Below, in pieces: positions 6,933 to 31,395 of a DNA stretch of 64,000 bases. Location: NCBI RefSeq assembly GCF_964204645.1, contig NC_134025.1, positions 24,148,001 through 24,212,000 of the forward strand, given 5' to 3'. The DNA is from Tubulanus polymorphus. Its lineage: Eukaryota; Nemertea; Palaeonemertea; Tubulaniformes; Tubulanidae. The first letter of the stretch is position 1; every line of letters starts with the position of its first letter. A program made the translations under genes and the position numbers. The notes beneath the pieces are model-generated. The model worked only from the letters and a program-made list of their open reading frames with translations. It did not search any database and was not told the origin of the DNA.

Positions 6933-7830
6933 GTTAGGAACAACAGATATGTCGTTATATCACGTTTAGTCGTTTAGTAGTAGAACGGAATCTTTGAGCA
7001 TGTTTAGGCCTTATAATGGATGTTTCTCAAGTCATGCATTACTGGCTGTTGACTCAACTGATTCCACCAGATGGCGATTGGTTGTTTCATTTTGATAAAT
7101 TTTATGGCATGAAATTCTATTATGGGACTTTTTCGTCTATACAAAGGAAGATATTTTACTGTTTGTGATCAGTAAGAGAATTTATCTTTGTATGCGAGGC
7201 TGCAAGTTCAATTCTTGTTGACACTTACAAAATGCACACGAAGCAAAATGATTGAGAATAATTCTAATTGGGAAGAATATGGTAGTAGTCTATCTTCTAT
7301 TGTTTAGTTCATTTAGTATTACTTACCTCTGTCAAGAAATTAATAGCGAAAATCAAAATGAATGGGTATTCTATTAGTAACCGTACAATGATTGTGCAAT
7401 AATTTCTATTTTACACGCAGTTTAATATGCATAAGTTTTTTTAAAGTATTATGCAGCATCTTTATGATTATTGGATGGCTTTATGAAACTGTACGGTGCG
7501 CTCATGTTTATGAGGTTAGTTCATTGAAATTTTGTTCAAATTCGATAAGAATCGTGTTCCATTTCTGATTGAATCTACATTAGTATTTTATCGTGTATCG
7601 TTATGAAAACTGCTGATTATTTATGTATTTATTAAAATGATCTCTTGTTGATTACTGCTGATCAATGATAACAATAAGCATAGTTTTATAGACTTTATCT
7701 TTATAAAAAAAACTGTTGATCAGTTGATGCAAATATTTCTGTAGTAAATGTATAGTAGATGATTACCAAGTTGAGCTGGTTTCACTTGATTAAAAATTGG
7801 TGATTAAATAAATTGATTATATTCAATGAA
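6933..7830 (+). other. 3'UTR of the GTPase gene, convergent end
   Basis: AT-rich, with no exon-like stretch. AATAAA at 7807-7812 is a likely poly(A) signal for the GTPase gene. On the opposite strand, TTTATT at 7628-7633 (AATAAA in reverse) could serve the lectin-astacin gene that ends at 7965, so the two 3'UTRs probably overlap by up to about 200 bp. Confidence 0.5.
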
Positions 7831-7964: not shown

Positions 7965-10900
7965 CTAAGGACAGGCTTGTTCATTACACGCTAACGATGA
8001 AGTGCTCGATCCGATGATACAGTCGATACCACCTCTGGCAGGTGAAGGATTAGTACACGTACGGGTTCGAGTTCGGGTCCCTCCACCACACGTTGCTGTA
8101 CATTTGCTGTACGCTGACCACGTTGACCAATATCCCTCCATTGGACCTAGAAATAGGCAGAATCAATAGAAACTAAATAGACAACTGTGTCCTCTGAAAG
8201 ATGATTTAGAACTTTGTTGTTGAATGTTTCGATTGATAGCAATATGATTTCGAAATTTCCGCTCACTTGGCCGACACTTTTCAATCTACCATGCAATCGT
8301 AGTTAATTTGTACAAATTGGAGAAAACCGAAAATATCAACAATTATATATGTATCATCAAGACCCGATTTTTCATTTGAATGTCGAGACATTCTATAGCT
8401 AAGATCTATGCATTTGAATAAAATTGTTCTTCATTTGTTACCGTTCCCGAGTTGGTATACGTCAACGGCGGAATCGGTCCCAGTTCCGCCACCTGTGCAA
8501 TCATCTGATGGTTCAAACAATGTGTGAAGGGCAACACTGTAACCGGCGTAGCAGTAACCGTCAAATCTTAACAAAGCGTACTGATAACCGAGCGCTTCGT
8601 TAGCTAAAACACATTTCTGAAAAAGGAGGAGTAATGTTCTAGAATAGTTTTCACCAAGAATCATTTGGTTTTTTTTCGTGACGAAAAGAAGAATCATAAT
8701 TATCTCGTTTATAGTAGATACGTAGGTCAATGTTCCAATTTTTCAAAAGTAAATTTCATTGTCAATGGTTACCTCAATCTTGTTCGTTCGATTCTTGTAA
8801 TATTCTTCCAGGTGCTTGCGGTTGTCTTCCAAACTTTCCATAATGTCCATCAGTTCATCATCCCAGCAACCAGCCCATGTATACGCCACTGAAACCGACA
8901 TTCTTAATGTGCAAGGATTTTTGAAATGAAAATGATTGAAGACATTGTTTTTCTTCGCACATATATACCTGATGTTGGACAAGCCTCGGTCATGCAATTC
9001 TCCGTCTCACTTGACGACCCGCTGCATGGTTGACCCTGTAGTCCAGGAACTGGGTTATCGCATTGTCTGCTTCTCTGACGAGAGCCGCCTCCACAAGTTT
9101 TTGTGCATTTTGTCCACGATCCCCAACTTCCCCAGTTACCGTCTACAACCAAATGATTTAATGATTTAAGTAATGATTTTCGTTAATCAACCGAAAAAAC
9201 TGCAGTTTCTTTTAATCGAATAAGTGCCACGTAAGTGTGAATTTTACCTTCATCGCAGTTGTACAAACGACGTATTTCTTTGATATCGAGATCACTGGGT
9301 CCATCACGTTGGCCAATCGAATCAAGAGTAGTCTCTTTTAGAGGAATCAGTGTCATCACTGATCGGTCGATGCCAAACGCATATAAACTGTAGTGCATAA
9401 CGCTATTGTAATCGTACTCAAACCCATTCGTGACTGAGTCTCCTTTCTTTTCGAAGTTTACTTCAGCTCCTATATAAAGATGGAGAAATTCTTCCACTTC
9501 TAGCTACCGTCTTAGCCTTATAACTAAGATCGATTGTATGAGTTCCATAATGGGAAATGGAGGGATGAATATACAATCTAATCTCTTTTTTAAGGCTTGC
9601 AGTTTGCGCTTTAAGAAAGCAGCCCTTTAACTGAATACAATGATTATACCTGGTTTAAGGTTATCTAGATTCACTTTCACGTATTCATCCCTATCCGGGC
9701 GAACGTGCTCGTGCCAAAATCCCATCGCGTGCATCAGCTCGTGCTGCACGGTTCCTGCGTAGAATAAACAATCCGGATGTAGGTTCATTTCTTGTCCACC
9801 CTCGGTTCGCAAATTCTCAAAATCCGTCTGTCGTCCAACATAAGACCAACACCTGAAGAAAAAGGTGGCGGAGAGAGTTCTGCACGACTGTTATTGATCT
9901 CAGTTAATGAGCAAAACCCACAGTTGATGATAACACAATTTATTTTGTCAGTTTCGTAGTTTTGACTAAACTTCATCATCAGAGAAACAACAAAAAAAGA
10001 ATATGTGTTTTGTTCACTAAGAGGTCTGCATTTTCATCGAAATTTGAATTTAAAAGATACATTAAACATTCTAATACTGGATACATACGCGTAAAGATCG
10101 CCTTTTATGTAAATATAATGTTTTTCGTCCGTTCTTTCGACGAATTTAACACATGTTTTGGTGTGGAAGAATTCCATATAGCTCTTTATTAACTGTTTGT
10201 CGTATGATGCTGAAAACAAAAATATTTTTTCTTTTGTCAAAATTTCATTGCAATTAAAACTGGTATCATAACGGTCAATTAGGACTTACCCATTTCTGGA
10301 CTAAAGGTGTATGGAATGATACCATTTGGCCATCGATATGTTTCTCCGATCAGTGCACTCCTCTTCACGTGTGTACTAAATAAAGGGTATGAATTTTCAC
10401 TATGATGATATTAGTTGAATTGAAGTTGAAGTTTGTAAACGAAATTAAATCAAAACCTTCTTTCTATTCTTCTGATAGGGGGTATATCTCTCTTGTTGGT
10501 TTTCTTCCGGCTGCGGAAGCGTTCTCTTCGATGGATAGCATTCTGTACCTCCTTTGGATTGTTCGGATCCTTTCCATCATCGAGAGCCAATTTCTGACCG
10601 GGTGTTAGTTTGATATCCATCTCGAAAAGTCCAGCCATTCCTTAAGCATACATGAGTACATGAGAGATTATTCAAACGGAGAACAAAAGGCGAGATTTAA
10701 TGCGAAAAGTTCGAATAATTCACCAAGTTTCTCGTTTATTTTCTCCAAGCGATCGAGCGATTGTTTTTGCTTTTTCATTTTTTCTTTAATTTTCCTGCGT
10801 TTTTCAATTCTAGCATTCATTTCTTCCACCACTCTTTTATCCTCTGTTAATAATAAAGCAGCTTCCGGTGATTTGTGTGAGAAATAGTACATAATTTCTA

Positions 10901-12956
10901 TTTCCGATTAAGACGGCCAATCATCGTATAGGTTTACGGTTCCCCTGCTCGTGAGATAAACGAATTTTCACTTACTAGGAGTATCCAACTCACAAAGAAA
11001 TTTTAGTTTCTTTTCGCAATCGACTTTTTTTAATTTCATGTTGCTACCTAATGCCATACAATGGCCTTCCGAGATGCCTTCATCCAAATACTTCCAAATA
11101 GACTAAAATCAACAGACAGCTAGCAATAACATGTGTTTTATCTTCCTGTCAAACATATTCAAAATATCACAATATAGGAAAAGTTCTTGGCAAAAAAAGG
11201 ACTATTTTCGCAGCTGTCGATGGCTAAAAGTCGACCTCAAGTTCAATTTTGTTTTGTCTATTGCCCAAGAATTTATTCATTAAACTTAGACTTCAACTGA
11301 ACTAAGCATAAGCAAGATCTATTGAATCTTAAGGATCGATTTCATTCAATTTCCTGTTCGTCAAGAGCTATTTTCATTATGAAATATCGCGAAATAATCA
11401 ATCAAATAGATTTTTCGAATCGGATATTTACCCATCTGCTCGATTGATCGACCACGGAATCATCGACCCATTTGAACAATCCAGTTTCATTGCGCAAACC
11501 TATCCAAACATCGCCATGTGACGACAATTCATGTTTTTCCTTCTTTCCTTTGTGCGCCCTGAAATTCAAAATCACTTTTCACACAAGATATTAGGATGAT
11601 TTCAAATCATACATATATTCCCATACTTATTGAAATATTTACACACAATAAGCCAAACACTCGCCAAGTGTACAGTAATCTCAAATCTGAGTTAACTCTA
11701 TAGACAATGAACTGATTTTACCTCAGGGTTAACTCTAACTCACAACTGTGGAACTGGATCCAGGGAACCATGTTTCTCGTAAAACGCGCACGACACAGGA
11801 AAACCTGTCTCCCTCCAGTTTCCGTGTTTTCCCTTCGCCGTTGAGCGTACGTTGGGCTTAAATTAGCTTTAGGGAAATGTAATGTACGACCACATACCTA
11901 GTTTTATCTTCTAAATGGGGTTTTATTTTTTTGAAATCGAAAAGTCGTTTGATCACCGCTAATTGTCCATTCTTTTCGCATTCCGCTTTCGCCTGATGCC
12001 AGGTTTTTCTTTTCGCCGGCAGCCTATAACATTTATCTCCTACCGCGAAACCATTTCTTTTGCAATCACTTGCAGCTACAATAAATTGATTAATTGAAAA
12101 TGTGATGCATTCTTTTGAAATGCATTGTTTTGATCTTAAAATAGCGGTTGTAATTTATTTGTTATTCATTTGGTTGGTGAATTTCGTTTGATGTTTTAAT
12201 TGAGTGTCCCTTACAGACCCACCACACCTACCGGGAGCGAAACAGGGGGTTTTATTTTGAAATCGAAAATCGAAGTACAGATATAGTTTTGTGATCGGCG
12301 GTCGAGTATACATAATTTTTTGTTTAAATTGAAGTACATAATTGGGAAATTCGGATGTTAGCGTATGCAAGACACGATACCAGCGTTATCCATATGCTGG
12401 AATTTCAAAGGGGCTGCATTCATTGTCAAGTGTCGTGGCGGCTCAAGTATCAAGACTTCCGATTTCGATCCCCAAGAATATAGGAAATTTAAGCTAAATT
12501 TTGGTGTAATCTTCTATTTTTTTCACAGTAGATCAATATGTTTCAAAGCAATTATCAACATTGATATAATCTTGACATCCAGACTGGAAGAAGGGGGCAG
12601 AAGAAGGGGCAGAAGATATTTTGTAAAGGGTGGCTGAGTTTCCGAGTGTTGATGTGAAAATGAAAGGGGTGCCGGCCACCCCGCTAAAACCTGTTGTGGA
12701 GAACACTGCAATTACACCAAAAATTTGAGTTTAACTTTTTTGTGAAACTGAGCCCAGGATACCAATCATTATACTTTTTCAGTTTCTTGCATTAATTTTT
12801 CTTTTCAAGGAAAGAAGAAAAAGTAAAATACAACTTGCCTTCTGTCGTAGCTATTTTAATCGGGACATTTCTGTCGTGGGCTAAATCACGATGGCGACCA
12901 CTTCCAACTTTTAACAAAGCGAAACATAAACAAAGCAATACCCATGTAACTTTCAT
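7965..12956 (-). CDS. Secreted C-type lectin - astacin metalloprotease - TSP1 multidomain protein
   Basis: Fourteen phase-consistent exons (minus order): 12839-12956, 11898-12075, 11432-11558, 10976-11102, 10724-10861 (or to 10897), 10457-10640, 10290-10375, 10089-10209, 9650-9852, 9248-9469, 8969-9142, 8773-8888, 8442-8616, 7965-8146; about 716 residues. Signal peptide (MKVTWVLLCLCFALLKVG); C-type lectin fold about 42-183 (CYRL, DVWIGLRN, FKWVDDS, GHCMAL, DCEKKLKFLCEL); a basic, coiled linker; a propeptide with the aspartate-switch-like FEMDIKLTPGQ and KKTNKR/VKRS cleavage sites; astacin catalytic domain about 320-500 with HELMHAMGFWHEH near 396 and Met-turn SVMHY. Then TSP1 (WGSWTKCTKTCGGG), a Cys domain starting YTWAGCWDDE, and a second TSP1 (WSTWSAYSKCTATCGGG). 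Zinc ligands are intact, so it should be active. Intron 1 has a GC donor. The exon 5 acceptor is uncertain. Confidence 0.88.
12076..12838. other. Intron 1 of the lectin-astacin gene
   Basis: A 763-bp intron between the signal-peptide exon and the first lectin exon. It holds short ORFs without splice or family support and a G/A-rich patch near 12590-12640. No gene or clear repeat was found in it. Confidence 0.5.
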
Positions 12957-15200
12957 GTCGACTCGACTCAAAGTTGCAGACGATAAAAACTAATTTCAAT
13001 TCTGTCCACCTTTTATAGGGAATGTTTTTTTAGCAATAACTATCAATCTAAATGCTGACAAAGCGTATCAAAATTCTTTATTACTATCAGCCGCTTATTT
13101 GCTCGACAAATTTCCACTTCGATATGAATTGTTCAGCGCGAAAAATTTGGCACGTTCCTCGCGACGAGAATAATTCATCGAGTTGTAAAGCACGTAAACT
13201 GATATTTCATCGATAAAATGCAACCGAAATATAACCATACTTTTTAAAAAAAGGCATATGTTTTATATATACATATTGCAGCTCGGATGCAAAACAAATG
13301 GTTGTCAAATATTTAACCCACATGTGTTTAGAATTTGAGAGTTTTATGTTCAAGTATATATCGATTTGTATGTAGATCAATGATTGTATTTTGCATGTAG
13401 AGTACCAACAGACTTATAAAAAGTATCAGTCCACTTTTAAGACAATCTTAAAAACTCTCCAGATTCTTCTACCTGAAATTAAATGAATTGTTAGTTGTGC
13501 GTTTGTTTAATAGAAATTACCATGTCATCCGAGATTCCAGTTAGTAAACCCAGATTTTTCACTATTGTTTGAATTTATGGTAGAATAGCCACCAATAAAC
13601 GTGGAGAACAGATGATAAGATAAAAATCCACAATATACAGATTTGAAACTTTTGAATCTGTACATAGTGGATTTTCATCTAATTGTTTGAACTTAATTCC
13701 ATTCCATTGCAAGATATAATCCGAATTCAAAGTAGACAATAGAATTGTTTGTATTTCCTCTCCAGATTAGACACTTCATTTAAAAACAAAAACATCAGAT
13801 TCCTCATGTTGTCTGATTTTTATTCTATATTGACTAGATTTGAAATGGTCAAGTAGACAATGCAACATTATAGTCTTCATGATTTACTTCATCAGATAGA
13901 CTGGACGGTAAACAATAGATAACTCATCATTTGTTTATGACTAAAACTCATCATTTACATGTATTCATGACTAGATTGACTGTTACACCACTTATGGAAC
14001 AGAAATACTTAAATTTTACATGACAAGATTTGATATTTGTCTTTAACGTAAATATAGACTTCAATAATGTTTCGTTTACGTTTACAGAAACATTTGAATT
14101 ATATTTCATCACAAGATTCGATATTTTGTACTATATTTGAAGCACACAGTGGCAGTTTCCTGCACGGAAGCGTCTGGAGTTTCAAAACTAAGAATAAACC
14201 TTGACTGTTTTCTACATCTAACTAATGCATTTTGAGATTCATTCTGATTTGCATTCAAATGTGTATCCCGGACACTTCCGTACTAGTGGGATTTCAAATT
14301 TAAAGGGTACCTGTTGGAGCCACACATTATAAAATTTACGAGCCAGTATATTGCATATTTCGTCTATCAAAATAATTAATGATATGTAACTTTTAAAGAT
14401 ATAACTATCATGGTACATGTTTAAAAAGTATATCGATGTTGTTGTACATTCATTGAAATTAGTTTATAAAACTATATAGATTACATAATTTTGGTAAATA
14501 ACATATAATCTGTATACAATATGGTTGTACACTGTACTAAGTTGCCAATTGTTTCGGGTATATAAAAACTTCAGGGTCCAGGGCATCATGATGGCGAAGA
14601 GGTTTGAAATGTTCGACAGTCTGAAAATTTCAACATTCAATGCTGAACATACTGCCACAATCATGTCACGAGCTGCGATTCAATAATTGAATGCAGTAAC
14701 AAAATACGTCAGTATACAGATGGAAATACTAAGTTTTTGTACTATTCAAGGCCCCCTGGTTACCATATACAAAACCAATAACTGTGACTGAAAGTCACCA
14801 CAATCATAGAAAATGTCATGAGATTTAACCATGAAATTGATTGTGGTAACAAAATATGCATAGGCACCAATATAAAAAGACAAATTACATATATCGAGGT
14901 AATTTAATATTCAACTCCTGGTGGTGAATACGAAAAAAACTGGATAATCCCAATTCCATGAGGAGATATATCCTATGACAGTGCTAAGAATTATCAAATA
15001 TCAAGAATATAAGTTAAAACCTATATTTTCCTCAAAAAACTTTCCGTCGACAAATGAGGACTGATGACACTAAGATGGCCGCCAATTGCGTGACATTGGC
15101 CAAACCCTTTAAAATCGAATATTGAAATAATTATTTGTGGCAGGATTCTATAGGTATAAGAAAATGTAGCATATTTCGCGTTCGTATAACAAAATCAATC
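12957..15200. other. Intergenic AT-rich DNA, no gene seen
   Basis: Upstream of the lectin-astacin start codon on the minus strand, so its promoter should lie just above 12956. No exon with splice sites and family similarity was found. Stretches near 14160-14600 and 14740-15130 have the patchy look of old transposon debris, but no termini could be fixed. Confidence 0.4.
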
Positions 15201-17020: not shown

Positions 17021-20000
17021 CTACAATTCGGTTGTAAGCACCTCGCCACGCGGACATTTCTTCCTGTATTCGGCAATTTCGTGAATGACATCTGCAACCG
17101 CGTTGAAGGGCGGACGAAACAGCGGATCATCCAACGTGCACGCCATCGCCACGTATTTCAATTCTAAATCGATATCGCGCACGTAACTCTTCAAAGCCTT
17201 GATGAGCGTTCCCAAGAGAAATACGTCCGATTTTTCGCCGGCTCTGTACAACTCGCGAACTTCGTGCAGCTCGGGAGCCCGATATTCAATCGGAGAATCG
17301 CAGAAATTCGCATAGGTCGGCACGAGTTTTCCGTCTTCTTCGTGAACGAAAATATTTCGCAAGCCGATATATTCGAAAACGATGCCCTTATCGTGAATTA
17401 TCGTCATCGCGTTCGCGATCGAATCGATCAGCTCGTTCCAGACTTGTACGCCGTATTTAGTCGGTCTTTCGTCATTTACAGCGGCCGCATCTTCTCTGAG
17501 AAGGTCTAAGAGACGACGCTTGCCTTCTTCGCGCACGTTTTCAACCACTAACGCCCAGTCACAGTAGACCGCCGAGGGCATTATCGGAAACAGCCCGTAA
17601 AGTTTCGGTACTAATTTCGTTTTCTGCAACGTCGACAGCACGGCGGCAGTTTTGAACATTTCCGAAACGTGTCGATTTTCCTGCTTATACAACACGACGC
17701 TGGCTGGTTTTCCCTTGTAAATCGCTTTCAAGGCAATGCCGTATTTATCGCTTTGCAATTCTACGCAGCGACCAGCTTTATTCGTCGTTATTTCGAGATC
17801 CTTATGACCATCTTTTATAAGCTCGCTTAGATCGACTGATTGGCGAATCTTTTTAGGTATCATCGCACGGCACATTTTCATCGCGCCGGATTTGAATTTT
17901 TTGCTCGTTTTCAAGAACGCGATATCGCGATCGACGCATTTCTTTTTTGGCTCGGGCGCTTTATCGATGTGTTCTACCCACTGGCCATCTTCCAACTTCC
18001 AGTGTCGGGTAAAGTCGATGAGGGGCTTGAAGACCTTTTGAAATTTCGTCACCGGAATTTCGGGAACTTTATAATCACCAGCCGCCTGATTGGTACACGC
18101 AGTTGGCTGTTCCCAATCATTATTATTCAAATCGCCGCATTGTTGCACGCACGATTCGGACTGGGTGACTTTAACGGTTGACTTATCTTTTCGAGATTTC
18201 TTCCCTGGAATTAGAAAATTATGCAAAATGTTAAGCAAAATATTCGACTTGAGCTATTTTGATAGCGTCTGCGGGCAATCTAACGCTCGCTAGCTAAAAT
18301 GGTTGCGTCCGAGGAAAAGAAAAAAAGGTGGAATTTACTGTGCACATTTCTCGCTGAAAATAGTTTTTCTCGCAGATTCAAGTCCTGCCTGGATAAGACA
18401 AATTTAAATTCTTTTCTCCAGTGAGTTTATATTTTTCATCTGAGAATTCAAAGTTCAGATCCATAATCATTGAAGTGATGTTTATGAAGTGACTATATGC
18501 ATACGCCTGTATTTCGTATGCACTTTTCACTGCAAAACACGGGCTCTACGTTGATTTCGTATTTATTTGACTCGTTTGTAAATCAAGTTAGTGAAAATTT
18601 CTAAAATTAAAAAGTGTAAACCAAAAATATACATTTGATACTGTCAGATTTTAGTGCTTAAGAGATGAAATGCAAAACAGGAAGCAACATAATTGCGTAG
18701 GCCCTATCATGTTATTAGATTTAATTGTATCCTTTTTCAAAATGCTAAATTTGCATGGTATTTTGTTAAAAGAGCTTATAACTTCATGAATTCAAATAAT
18801 TTCAAGTCAACAATGTGATTATAGTCGAAACCCTGCGCCCGCATTGGATCATCCGGGTTATCTAGAATGAACAGGTAATTCTCATTTCATAGAAACGCCA
18901 GCGTTTATTTTAAGCTTTATTTTATAGCGATCGATTTTGTTGAATAAGCTATTCTGCTTCGGCAGCGATTTAAACGATAAACAATAATTTACCGCGTATA
19001 TGGTGTATTAGACAGGGCCTTTCCCTCTCGATATCGATGTACACGTATTTCTAAAAAGCGTGTTTGCATTACGTATACCTGTATAGTACCTATTTATACT
19101 CCTGCAAAGTGATTTTTGGTTTTGGCCAACTTAAGGGCACCTTGCAAGTCTTTTTTTATGATATGACAATTATAATTAATTTTGTCATATAGGCCCTATG
19201 AGTATATGGAGGTGACAGTGAAAAATAAAATATATATTTTTTGGTGGGTACGAAATGTTTTTCATTCGAACGAAATTATTTTTTCCTCGATTTTTAACGA
19301 GAATGTGTGACATGGAAATAGGGCGTAGAATATATTGTTTCTTTTTACAACTAAACAACTGTGGGTGAAAAATGATTAGACCCCTATATTTTTTTTTCGT
19401 GGGATTTTTGGCCACGAAATCTATTTCGTTCAAATGAAATGATTATTTCTTTTTTCTATTTTAAAAAAAATTAATACATTTCTCACCACGTCACCTCCCG
19501 GGGCTCCAGACATGACGGGATATCGAAAACATGCAGCAAATAAACGTTGAAAAGAAGAGCACAGGGCCCCTAGTCCCATGCCAAGAGCGCCTATAGTCCC
19601 ATGCAGAGGCTTTGGGGAGATCAGTTGCAGCCCCACAAACGAAACGAGAGTTTATTCTATCATCATCTTTTTTCAGTCCTGAACACGAGTGAAAAGGCTA
19701 TAGCGTAGACTGCTTAGTTTAAGGGCCACATTAGCTTATTAATCTTACACCTAAAAACGTTAGTTTGTTAGTATTAGAAGCACCAGCCGCAGACTGGTAT
19801 CAAATTGATTAGTCGAACACACACACTACAGACACATGGGCTTACCTGCAAGCGATACAAATTTATTCCTAGGTTTATGAAATAGGTTTCAACACCTATT
19901 GAAAGATAAACCCTCTATCTAAAATCCGAAGCCATTATCCGCACCTAGAAAATGTCCCCTGACTAACTCGAACTTTACAGATCAAGAAAAGTGTAAGGGT

Positions 20001-21913: not shown

Positions 21914-22149
21914 ATGATGGTACCTTTATCGTACACATCCAACTCATAATTCTTGTATAAACAAGCAAATTTTCATAATTTAACAATTATTCAAATGCTT
22001 TACGATGGATTTCTGAACAGTGTGTAAACATTTTATCGGAGGGCTGGAGCCGGATGTTATACATACGTAGCATGACATACATAGTTTAAAACAGTCACCA
22101 AACTGCATGGGACAGTGTACTTAGACCTGTGAATCCAGAAAATAAGCAC

Positions 22150-23163
22150 ATGGCGGCGTCAGCTATGGATTCTTTTTTTGTGGGTCGCGTGTCCGTTACT
22201 GTGTTGTTTTGGCTGTTCAGCGTTCTTGTAAATTTGTTTTTGTTTCTCATTTTGGTGCGTTCGAAACGACCGATGCTGCGACGTGGTCATTATAAATTCG
22301 TTGCGAACTTGTTATTTGCAAATTTCCTAACGATGTTATTGAGCAACGTCCATTCAACGCTAGAACTTTTGAATTTGACGAACTTGACGAGTTGTCGGAC
22401 ACTGATGTTACTGGCGATGATACCCGGTTCAGTATCAACGATCAACGTAGCCGCTATCGCCGTTCATCAATACATCAAGATCACCTATCCGACAGTGGTC
22501 ATTTCGAATTGCAGCATCATATTCGCTTCCGTAGTTTTGTGGATAATGCCGATGGTTATTTACATACCGGCTGAAATCGGTACCGATTGGCATTGTCTGA
22601 TCGTACCGATAAGACGCAACGAGACTCGAGCTATCTGCTCGTACGGTGTTTGTCACGATGACGCGATACGAAAGCACTGCGGCCTGGCGATGATAATTTT
22701 GACGATCTTTCTTCCAATGCTTCTCATCGGGCCGTTGTATGGTTTGATTACCGTAAAGATCCACTCAAAGGAATCGACTCGTCGACTGTCGCAAATCAGA
22801 CGTAGTAGACCCACGAGTAATTATAACGGGAAATATTTTGGATTTCTTAAGGATATGATGCGCGATAAAAGATATCGTGTCGTCTGCACGATGGTATTTG
22901 TTTACGCTTGTTTCGTCTGTTTCACGATGCCGTTCGGAATAACGATGGTCGTATCTGCCTTCATCCACGTCAGCACGTTCATTCCTCGAATCACGTCGTG
23001 GGTAATGGGTCTCTATTTCGGCATGAATTGGTTGATATTTTTCATCACCGACCAAAAGATTCGCAAGGAGATGCAGCGGTATTTATGTTGCGGCAAATGC
23101 TCGGCGCAAAATAATTCCGCCGATTCGGATACATCGTCGCATTATGTGGGATCTTTATCATGA
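22150..23163 (+). CDS. Rhodopsin-type orphan GPCR, single exon
   Basis: An intronless frame of 337 residues from ATG 22150; a second ATG at 22165 is possible. Seven hydrophobic segments are visible, starting VTVLFWLFSVLVNLFLFLIL and ending SWVMGLYFGMNWLIFFIT. TM3 ends AIAVHQYIKITYP, where the DRY motif is replaced by HQY. TM7 lacks NPxxY. Cys residues before TM3 (TSCRT) and in the second extracellular loop (WHCL) fit the conserved disulphide. The third loop is short and basic, and the tail has CCGKC, a possible palmitoylation site, then a Ser-rich end. Ligand unknown. It converges with the 7TM gene at 23684. Confidence 0.82.
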   Translation: MAASAMDSFFVGRVSVTVLFWLFSVLVNLFLFLILVRSKRPMLRRGHYKFVANLLFANFLTMLLSNVHSTLELLNLTNLTSCRTLMLLAMIPGSVSTINVAAIAVHQYIKITYPTVVISNCSIIFASVVLWIMPMVIYIPAEIGTDWHCLIVPIRRNETRAICSYGVCHDDAIRKHCGLAMIILTIFLPMLLIGPLYGLITVKIHSKESTRRLSQIRRSRPTSNYNGKYFGFLKDMMRDKRYRVVCTMVFVYACFVCFTMPFGITMVVSAFIHVSTFIPRITSWVMGLYFGMNWLIFFITDQKIRKEMQRYLCCGKCSAQNNSADSDTSSHYVGSLS

Positions 23164-23683: not shown

Positions 23684-25003
23684 TTAGACTGAGCTGGATG
23701 TGTGGCCTACGCCCGAACTCTTGGTTGATGGAGTTTCGTTGGTACTGCTACTTTCATCTTTTTTCGTACCCGACCTCGTCGTGTATCTCCTGAATACGGT
23801 ATACGCGGAGAAGTTGAAAAACCCGCCCATGTTGGTGAAAAACACCGTCGCCATTATGAGCGGGACGCTCGGAACAGAAACTAACGCCCAAATCGAGTAC
23901 ATCACCAAAGTGGAATATTGCAGAACGTACGCCGACACGAAAACGGTCATCGAATACGCGGCAAGGTAAAGTTTTCGTTGTCGGTTGATGCTGTCGCTGG
24001 TCTTATACGTCTGTAAGCGCTTAGCGACGAGCTTGATGCGCCACCAAGCCATCGCGTACAAGATGCCGTTGATAAAAAACACGAGCACCATGATAATCGA
24101 GTGCACCATGTTCAAGGCTTCCTTCCATTTTACGCGGCTGTCGATAAAACACCTGAAAATATATACATGTATGTTCAAAACATTTTCGTCATCAGATAAT
24201 ACTTTTCAATACTTGGAAATTAACACAGCGCGGGGCTCGTATTTGAAGTTTGGGGGTGAACGAATAGTAGCTTATATCATCCTGTATCCCCAGAATACTT
24301 GAGATGCTGTAGGATCTAAGCTACTATTCGTGCATTCCCAAACTTCAAATACAAGCCCTGTGGAAATCAAGCAAAACCTTCAAACCAGTTCAGTCATACT
24401 TTCTTTTGTAATTTCGATATGATTATTCTAAACTAATGCTTATATTGAATTGATATTTCAAAAATACATCGGCAAAAACACGTACCAGGCTCCACTTGGG
24501 CCAAAATACGGGATCGCAACTCCGGTAATACCAGTTATGAATGGTATGACCATCGGTACGAGCCACAGTCGCCAGTCGTACGCGCCGAAACTAATCTTCT
24601 TATCCATAACGACCATCAGAAACGTGTTGAACGCGATGGACATCGTCATTAACGGCGTTGCGACCAGAAACTGTTGCAGAAAGAAGGCGAACGTTATGCA
24701 AAGACTGTCCGGAGGGTGCGATTTCATCACGAATATGTAGATATGGTCGATCAAGTGGCTGACATTGAACATAAGATCGCACGCTTGCAGATATACAACG
24801 AAGCGATCTACTTGTTGCTTCTTGCGAAAATTAAATCTCGGCTTTTCCAACAAAATGAATGTAATTACGGTAACGCTAATCACAACGCTGATGCTGAGGC
24901 TTGCCACGGCGATCGTATGGATCTGTCTAAATATTGGTCCAGGATAACCGACTAAAATCGCACCAGTAGGATCCCTATAAAATAAGGTCTGGTTTGATGC
25001 CAT
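23684..25003 (-). CDS. Orphan 7TM receptor, two exons
   Basis: Exons 24486-25003 (ATG) and 23684-24152 (TAA) join inside a codon (TG/G, Trp) to 328 residues. N-terminus MASNQTLFYRDPTG carries an N-glycosylation site. Seven hydrophobic segments follow, from IAVASLSISVVISVTVITFI to the last, GGFFNFSAYTVF. A long intracellular loop 3 reads RIKLVAKRLQTYKTSDSINR. The tail is Ser/Thr-rich (SSSTNETPSTKSSG) and ends HTSSSV, a possible PDZ ligand. No DRY motif is seen, so this is either a very divergent rhodopsin-type receptor or another 7TM class; ligand unknown. Its single intron carries the snapback element at 24231-24360. Confidence 0.8.
24231..24360. mobile_element. Snapback MITE-like element (GGGGCTCGTATTTGAAG termini)
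   Basis: Left arm 24231-24274 and right arm 24317-24360 are inverted copies of 44 bp with about five mismatches, around a 42-bp centre. The outer end CGGGGCTCGTAT is shared with the inverted repeat at 25857-25977. No ORF is present. It lies wholly inside the intron of the 7TM receptor gene. Confidence 0.8.
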
Positions 25004-25530
25004 GATCGATTCGGATTAACGATTGCGATTGAATTAACCAATGTTTAGTTAAAACATGTTTTCCGGGGTGAAACCCATTCAAATTCCTATATACATCGAA
25101 AAGTCTTTATCAATCTATTTTTATTATTTTTTTTGTTGTCAAATTCATGTTTACCTGAATGTAATTCGGGAAGTTAATTATGAACACATCCAGTATCGAT
25201 CATGAAAAGCGAGACAATAAGTTTTAAGGATAGTCAGATGTATCTTGTTTCAAGCATCAGTCGGCCGGTCCCAAAACCGCACGGCCACCAAGTCGATCGG
25301 GATGGAAGTTTCGCACTACCGGGTGCCTGTCGGTGAAAAATAAATCAAAATGGCGTAGAGCTTGAACCGGTTAGTCAGTACGACGGCTTCAGCGGAATTT
25401 GTTTAACCTTTAATAGGATTTTCATATTGATAATAAAATGCATACGCGGTGTTCGATGAATAAATTGAATTTGAATTCGAACTTGTCCGAGTCCTAGACC
25501 ATAATCCTCCGCCGAATATTAGGGACAACT
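25004..25530. other. Intergenic region between the 7TM gene and GNPNAT1
   Basis: Upstream of both the minus-strand 7TM gene and the plus-strand GNPNAT1, so both promoters should lie here. At 25254-25338 there is a GC-rich open stretch, readable on either strand with splice-like flanks. No family was recognised and it is not called as an exon. Confidence 0.4.
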
Positions 25531-30352: not shown

Positions 30353-31395
30353 ATTTTGGGAAATAGAGTACGACGGTGTTTTATCATCACAAGTAACTTG
30401 CAGAATTGTTACAGAATTATTGAAATTCATCGTGTTCGAAAGACAACAAATTCCAGCACCATTTGAACAGCTTCTCCAGTCGCAGGTAAAAAATTAGAAA
30501 AAAATCAAATACAAATTTATTTTTAGTAATAAAAAGTTAGCCTGTTAGAAAATTTCCAACAATACGCTTTTAATGAATCCGATATACCCAGTAGGATTTT
30601 CATTCCAAATGTTTTTTCTCCTTACAGAATGAAGAAGAATTTAGTCGAAAACGAATTCATAGTAGAAAGACTGGTGTATCTCTGAATAGCAAACGTAAAT
30701 GTCATTTCGTCGAAAACTTTGAAAGCGTCATAAGAAATTTGGAATCGGCGTTTAAATGTTGCCATAAAATCGAACAAATACTGGTTCTACTTGGCGGGAC
30801 TGTCGTTAATCCGAAGGAGATATATGTTATCAAGTTACCTACACCCGGAACTTACGAGGGAAAATTACTGAATATGAAACCGTGCATTCGTAATTTCTTT
30901 CGTAAAATCATAACCAGCGATTTGTTCGGCGACTTGAAACTTCTTCCAACCACCAACTTATACGTGTTGATACAAGCGCCGAGAAACGCGAAAATCGAAT
31001 GGTTCCTTCCGAAATTGACGTACAATTTCAAACATCCCTCGCGTGGAAGAGTATTGACGTTGAGTATCTCGTCCAATTGCATCGTTCACGAGACTGAACT
31101 AACGCTAGGAAATGCTTCCGCCTTCGAAATTTCCGGAGTTGAGCCCTTATTAGATGGTACTCTCGATAACGGTGTGAATACATCCCTGTATGATAATCTG
31201 TCCAATTTGTGTATAAACGATGGCAGCACTTCTGATGAATTGAGCTGCGAAAACATGGCTGTCCAATTGCTCAACAATACAACATCTAATGAAATAGATG
31301 ATGAGTTAATTTGGTTTCAGGCTCCTGTATCTGTGAAAGGTTTTAAAGATAAAGTAACCACTAAAACTTCTAAAGCAACAGATATTTGGGGATAA
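30318..31395 (+). CDS. MAD2L1BP: MAD2L1-binding protein (p31comet)
   Basis: Exons 30318-30485 and 30628-31395 join at phase 0 to 311 residues. Family motifs in order: TCRIVTELLKFIVFERQQIP followed by FEQL; a basic stretch KRKCHFVE; LVLLGGTVVNPKEIYVIKLP; WFLPKLTYNFKHPSRGRVLT; and near the C-terminus ELIWFQAPVSVKGFKDK, the family signature. p31comet mimics and binds closed MAD2 and, with TRIP13, silences the spindle checkpoint (known). A poorly conserved Asn/Ser/Asp-rich insert of about 70 residues separates the last two motifs, longer than in vertebrates. An in-frame TGA lies a few codons above the ATG, which fixes the start. AATAAA for this gene is at 31470-31475. Confidence 0.93.

Follow-up and report, generated by a model that had tools for sequence, protein, structure and literature searches.

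A gene on the minus strand of the window, by which we mean the whole 64,000-nucleotide stretch of Tubulanus polymorphus DNA that was analysed, is best read as a member of a small astacin subfamily in which a C-type lectin-like domain (CTLD) appears to be built into the prodomain. The lectin and astacin halves very probably form a single-gene fusion, and the product is, as judged from its sequence, an astacin (M12A) zinc protease zymogen that is predicted to be secreted. Reading of splice sites and frame yielded a 710-residue open reading frame without a break, assembled from 14 minus-strand exons between the ATG at 12956 and the stop codon at 7965 (Table 1), which encodes in order a putative signal peptide, the CTLD, a basic linker, the astacin propeptide, the catalytic domain, a TSP1 domain, a WSC domain and a second TSP1 domain. 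A first-pass annotation had proposed that 14 exons chain in phase into one predicted secreted protein, and both this continuous frame and the N-terminus MKVTWVLLCLCFALLKVGSG, which is hydrophobic as read from the sequence rather than by a predictor, bear the proposal out. All introns end in AG and all donors are GT except that of exon 1, which is a strong site (AG/GCAAGT) of the rare but tolerated GC type, versus GT (GTCAGT) in the paralogues described below. The junctions proposed earlier kept the frame, but one acceptor, 10861, has a poor pyrimidine tract and was replaced by 10843 (TTTATTATTAACAG), which keeps the frame as well, fits better and agrees with exon 5 of the paralogues, a homologous 114-nt exon with the same phases.

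Table 1. Coordinates of the lectin-astacin gene and its flanking signals in the window
Feature	Position	Strand	Content
TATA box CTATAAAAG	13010..13018	-	54-62 nt upstream of the lectin start codon
Exon 1	12839..12956	-	Start codon, putative signal peptide MKVTWVLLCLCFALLKVGSG, N-terminal stretch; GC-AG donor
Exon 2	11898..12075	-	CTLD part 1; 178 nt in all four genes
Exon 3	11432..11558	-	CTLD part 2; WIGL motif
Exon 4	10976..11102	-	CTLD part 3 with its last cysteines; the next intron has an in-frame TGA within its first few bases
Exon 5	10724..10843	-	Basic linker, 15 K/R and 8 D/E in 40 aa
Exon 6	10457..10640	-	Astacin propeptide; FEMD, aspartate-switch-like
Exon 7	10290..10375	-	Predicted processing site HVKR/SALIG and start of catalytic domain
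Exon 8	10089..10209	-	Catalytic domain
Exon 9	9650..9852	-	Catalytic domain; zinc motif HELMHAMGFWHEHVRPDRD
Exon 10	9248..9469	-	Catalytic domain; SVMHY Met-turn and last catalytic-domain Cys
Exon 11	8969..9142	-	First TSP1 domain
Exon 12	8773..8888	-	WSC domain part 1
Exon 13	8442..8616	-	WSC domain part 2
Exon 14	7965..8146	-	Second TSP1 domain and stop codon
AATAAA, candidate polyadenylation signal	7628..7633	-	About 330 nt past the stop codon

Searching of the genome (268 Mb, 77 contigs) revealed a weak match of the lectin region to a tandem cluster that lies 3.6 Mb from the window gene, at 20.53-20.60 Mb of the same chromosome, C1. Three complete genes, A, B and C, were modelled in this cluster (C1:20527000-20602000), each encoding a signal peptide, a CTLD, a linker, a propeptide, an astacin domain, a TSP1 domain, a WSC-like domain and two further TSP1 domains (CTLD-astacin-TSP1-WSC-TSP1-TSP1). 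In all three, Lectin_C scored over the Pfam cut-off N-terminal to Astacin, which was followed by TSP1, while the WSC-like domain stayed under the Pfam cut-off in A and C yet aligned with the WSC of the window protein. The acceptor of exon 7 in gene C was set 12 nt inside the aligned position, where the AG has been lost; the frame is kept. The paralogues share 37-39% identity with the window protein overall and 26-29% in the CTLD, and therefore the split between the window gene and the cluster is an ancient one. Each of the 13 introns in the window gene is identical in phase to its counterpart in A, B and C (1,2,0,1,1,2,1,2,1,1,1,0,1), and since three paralogues repeat the exons with identical intron phases, the lectin-astacin pattern is not due to chance. 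When the comparisons between A, B and C were pooled, dN/dS was 0.36 for the CTLD, 0.42 for the linker (based on about 37 codons), 0.44 for the propeptide and 0.52 for the catalytic domain. The values of the CTLD and linker thus fall in the range of the propeptide and catalytic domain, as expected if all of these parts are translated, and they indicate that the CTLD and linker of the paralogues are under purifying selection. With the N-terminal regions of the window protein and its paralogues as queries, a search that weakly conserved members could escape, no further member was found beyond the four genes and one fragment, namely a CTLD exon 2 fragment at C1:20542732-20542812 which, together with a TSP1 piece near C1:20558090, represents the remains of a further copy. 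The comparison indicates that the four genes in this genome inherited their arrangement from one ancestral gene, and in genomic terms they are a clear case of an ancient fusion by exon shuffling that has kept every intron phase.

The domain assignments of the window protein were made with Pfam. Astacin was matched at residues 299-493 (E 1.8e-54; 184.7 bits against a cut-off of 22.5), two stretches were over the cut-off for TSP_1 (E 8.8e-19), and the Cys-containing domain that had been left unnamed between the TSP1 domains could be given an identity, since it scored 31.0 bits as WSC when scanned alone (cut-off 27.8), although it stayed under the cut-off within the whole protein (24.8 bits). The nearest solved structures for the protease are crayfish astacin and proastacin. 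The zinc motif HExxHxxGxxHExxRxDRD and the Met-turn SxMHY are intact and the catalytic-domain cysteines are conserved, so that the protease should be catalytically active, as predicted from its motifs. In the propeptide, FEMD retains the Asp of the FxGD motif with the Gly changed to Met (YQGD in the paralogues), and this aspartate, D232, is invariant across the four genes. The predicted cut at HVKR/SALIGETYRWPNG falls at the position where mature crayfish astacin starts, ALIGETYRW aligning with AILGDEYLW, and the distance between the cut and the Trp agrees with that in crayfish astacin. In the paralogues the site reads RRKR or RGKR and is clearly of the furin type, whereas furin is no strong fit for the window gene because its P4 residue is His and not Arg or Lys.

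The N-terminal domain has the fold characters of a CTLD, namely six cysteines, a WIGL motif and a Lectin_C match over the cut-off (residues 62-179; E 1.2e-10; 42.6 bits against 22.6). However, motifs of the EPN/QPD and WND types are absent from the CTLDs of all four genes, so the label of a carbohydrate-binding domain that it had received is not supported, and a classical calcium-dependent sugar binder is unlikely from the sequence; in the same genome, the C-terminal CTLD of an astacin-type gene on C2 has both QPN and WND (Lectin_C, 57.8 bits). The lack of these motifs therefore favours the view that the domain serves the zymogen by binding protein or as a structural element. The domain might instead bind carbohydrate by another mode and localise the zymogen to glycans, in line with the first-pass annotation, whose idea of a zymogen localiser is a reasonable one. 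This is conceivable inasmuch as some CTLDs, for example dectin-1, bind sugars without the canonical motif, and a profile comparison places the domain nearest to solved CTLDs of the mannose receptor family (LY75/DEC-205, which ranks first, and PLA2R; E 3.8e-31 for the whole chain and 2.8e-8 for the best single domain). We consider sugar binding by another mode unlikely, as both motifs are missing and contact with matrix or glycan is better ascribed to the C-terminal WSC and TSP1 domains, which would stay with the active enzyme. In the mannose-receptor-family proteins the CTLDs are repeated in an ectodomain, whereas the CTLD of the window protein is single, soluble and situated within a protease zymogen.

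That the lectin and astacin exons make up one gene, as the first-pass annotation claimed, is further argued for by the junction between exons 4 and 5. The same junction occurs in the three paralogues, where the intron measures 122, 93 and 111 bp (132 bp in the window gene), neither AATAAA nor ATTAAA occurs in this intron in any of the four genes, and the donor of exon 4 is the strong consensus GTAAGT in 4/4 genes. A TATA box precedes the lectin exon only, as no second copy of TATAAAR was found from this box down to position 7705, the gene interior included; paralogues B and C carry a TATA-like TTATAAAA at a similar distance, and A has CATAAAA. One gene could still yield, besides the fused protease, a lectin-only isoform: if intron 4 of the window gene were retained, translation would end at the in-frame TGA next to the donor. 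We regard this as improbable, since none of the three paralogues has the intron 4 stop and the donor is strong in every gene. The division into two neighbours, a small secreted CTLD protein ending in LDTPSK* after exon 4 and a downstream astacin-TSP1 gene, was rejected on the paralogue, promoter and gap evidence as scarcely credible, for although that in-frame TGA lies directly past the exon 4 donor and a lectin terminating there would have a normal length, intron phases and length, selection, TATA placement and the absence of a signal peptide combine against it: the gap is just 132 bp and holds no polyadenylation signal or TATA box, the paralogues share the junction and lack the early stop, and an astacin gene starting near exon 5 would not be secreted because the frame leading into that exon (SEIEIMYYFSHKSPEAALLLTEDKR) has no signal peptide.

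For the fused gene, the following course of events may be proposed. The protein would be secreted as a zymogen kept latent by the propeptide aspartate (FEMD), which would occupy the active site. A protease specific for basic residues would cut on the C-terminal side of HVKR, so that the enzyme would begin with SALIG, the canonical start of a mature astacin. Such cleavage would separate the CTLD and propeptide from the enzyme, in keeping with the earlier suggestion that the lectin would go on activation, and hence the CTLD would act at the zymogen stage, by placing the zymogen, stabilising its latency or recruiting the activating protease, probably via protein contact. The CTLD-linker-propeptide piece would then be released or kept only non-covalently; as the linker and propeptide contain no cysteine and the CTLD has six, no disulphide is expected from the sequence to hold the detached piece on the enzyme. 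The paralogues have seven cysteines in the CTLD and one in the linker, and a CTLD cysteine could pair with that of the linker. To judge from its anatomy, the TSP1-WSC-TSP1 tail would remain on the active enzyme and direct it to matrix or glycan. A zymogen-stage role of the CTLD, suggested by its position and its missing motifs, is put forward tentatively, at somewhat less than an even chance. The fuller proposal, that this astacin subfamily uses a CTLD that does not bind sugar as a working part of the prodomain, one that positions the zymogen or maintains its latency and is lost when the enzyme is activated, is more tentative still. If it is true, the protein is addressed by one set of modules as a zymogen and by another once active.

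The accessory domains of astacins are for the most part C-terminal to the protease and accompany the enzyme once it is active. The conservation, in four genes that have diverged, of a recognition-type domain before the propeptide suggests that control at the zymogen stage has been selected for. Compared with crayfish astacin, BMP1/tolloid and meprin, the window protein is alike in the zinc motif, the Met-turn, the cysteines, the Asp of the propeptide motif and, for crayfish astacin, the spacing of the cleavage site; it differs by the CTLD and linker inserted between signal peptide and propeptide and by the WSC domain in its tail. A review of the family defines the astacin core as signal, propeptide and catalytic domain (Gomis-Ruth and Stocker, 2023; PMC9848320), and in the available part of its text CLEC and TSP are counted among the accessory domains and WSC is not. 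The description of the architecture as unusual is thus upheld only in part: no CTLD ahead of an astacin propeptide, and no WSC-astacin, was found in the open-licence literature, but a C-type lectin as such is already an accessory domain of astacins (PMC9848320), its position not being given in that portion of the review. The placing of the lectin before the propeptide would therefore be a new domain arrangement within a known kind of astacin.

Other astacin and CTLD loci were observed in the same genome. At C2:3819800-3824899 (3.82 Mb) and C11:7605300-7611299 (7.61 Mb), which represent another class of astacin, astacin and CTLD likewise occur in one same-strand series of exons, but the CTLD stands at the far end, past EGF, CUB, kringle, probable ShKT and Sushi exons; these genes are only partly modelled and several of their domain matches are just under the Pfam cut-offs. 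The nearest astacin gene, about 90 kb from the window, contains an astacin-like exon (C1:24056938-24057141) whose open frame (LLTVLGMKPEHRRPDRD) has lost the first HExxH, which suggests either a homologue without activity or a gene that has decayed; no recognisable CTLD exon was found within 4 kb upstream of this locus (C1:24.056 Mb). At C8:9029600-9037999 (9.03 Mb), CTLD exons are followed by two TSP1 exons, with a possible discoidin-like region, not confirmed by Pfam, in between, and the inspected reading frames there contained no astacin exon. Elsewhere in the window, receptor-like frames without a Pfam match were seen at 23687-25015 on the minus strand. On the plus strand lie an RRM exon at 617-991 (RRM_5, E 1.2e-14; hnRNP L/PTB-like by eye), a rhodopsin-type GPCR in a single long open frame at 22090-23160 (7tm_1, E 2.7e-17) and an exon of the Mad2-binding p31comet at 30595-31392 (E 1.8e-25), and the minus strand carries a kinase-like open frame of 410 aa at 17024-18253 (PK_Tyr_Ser-Thr, 25.7 bits).
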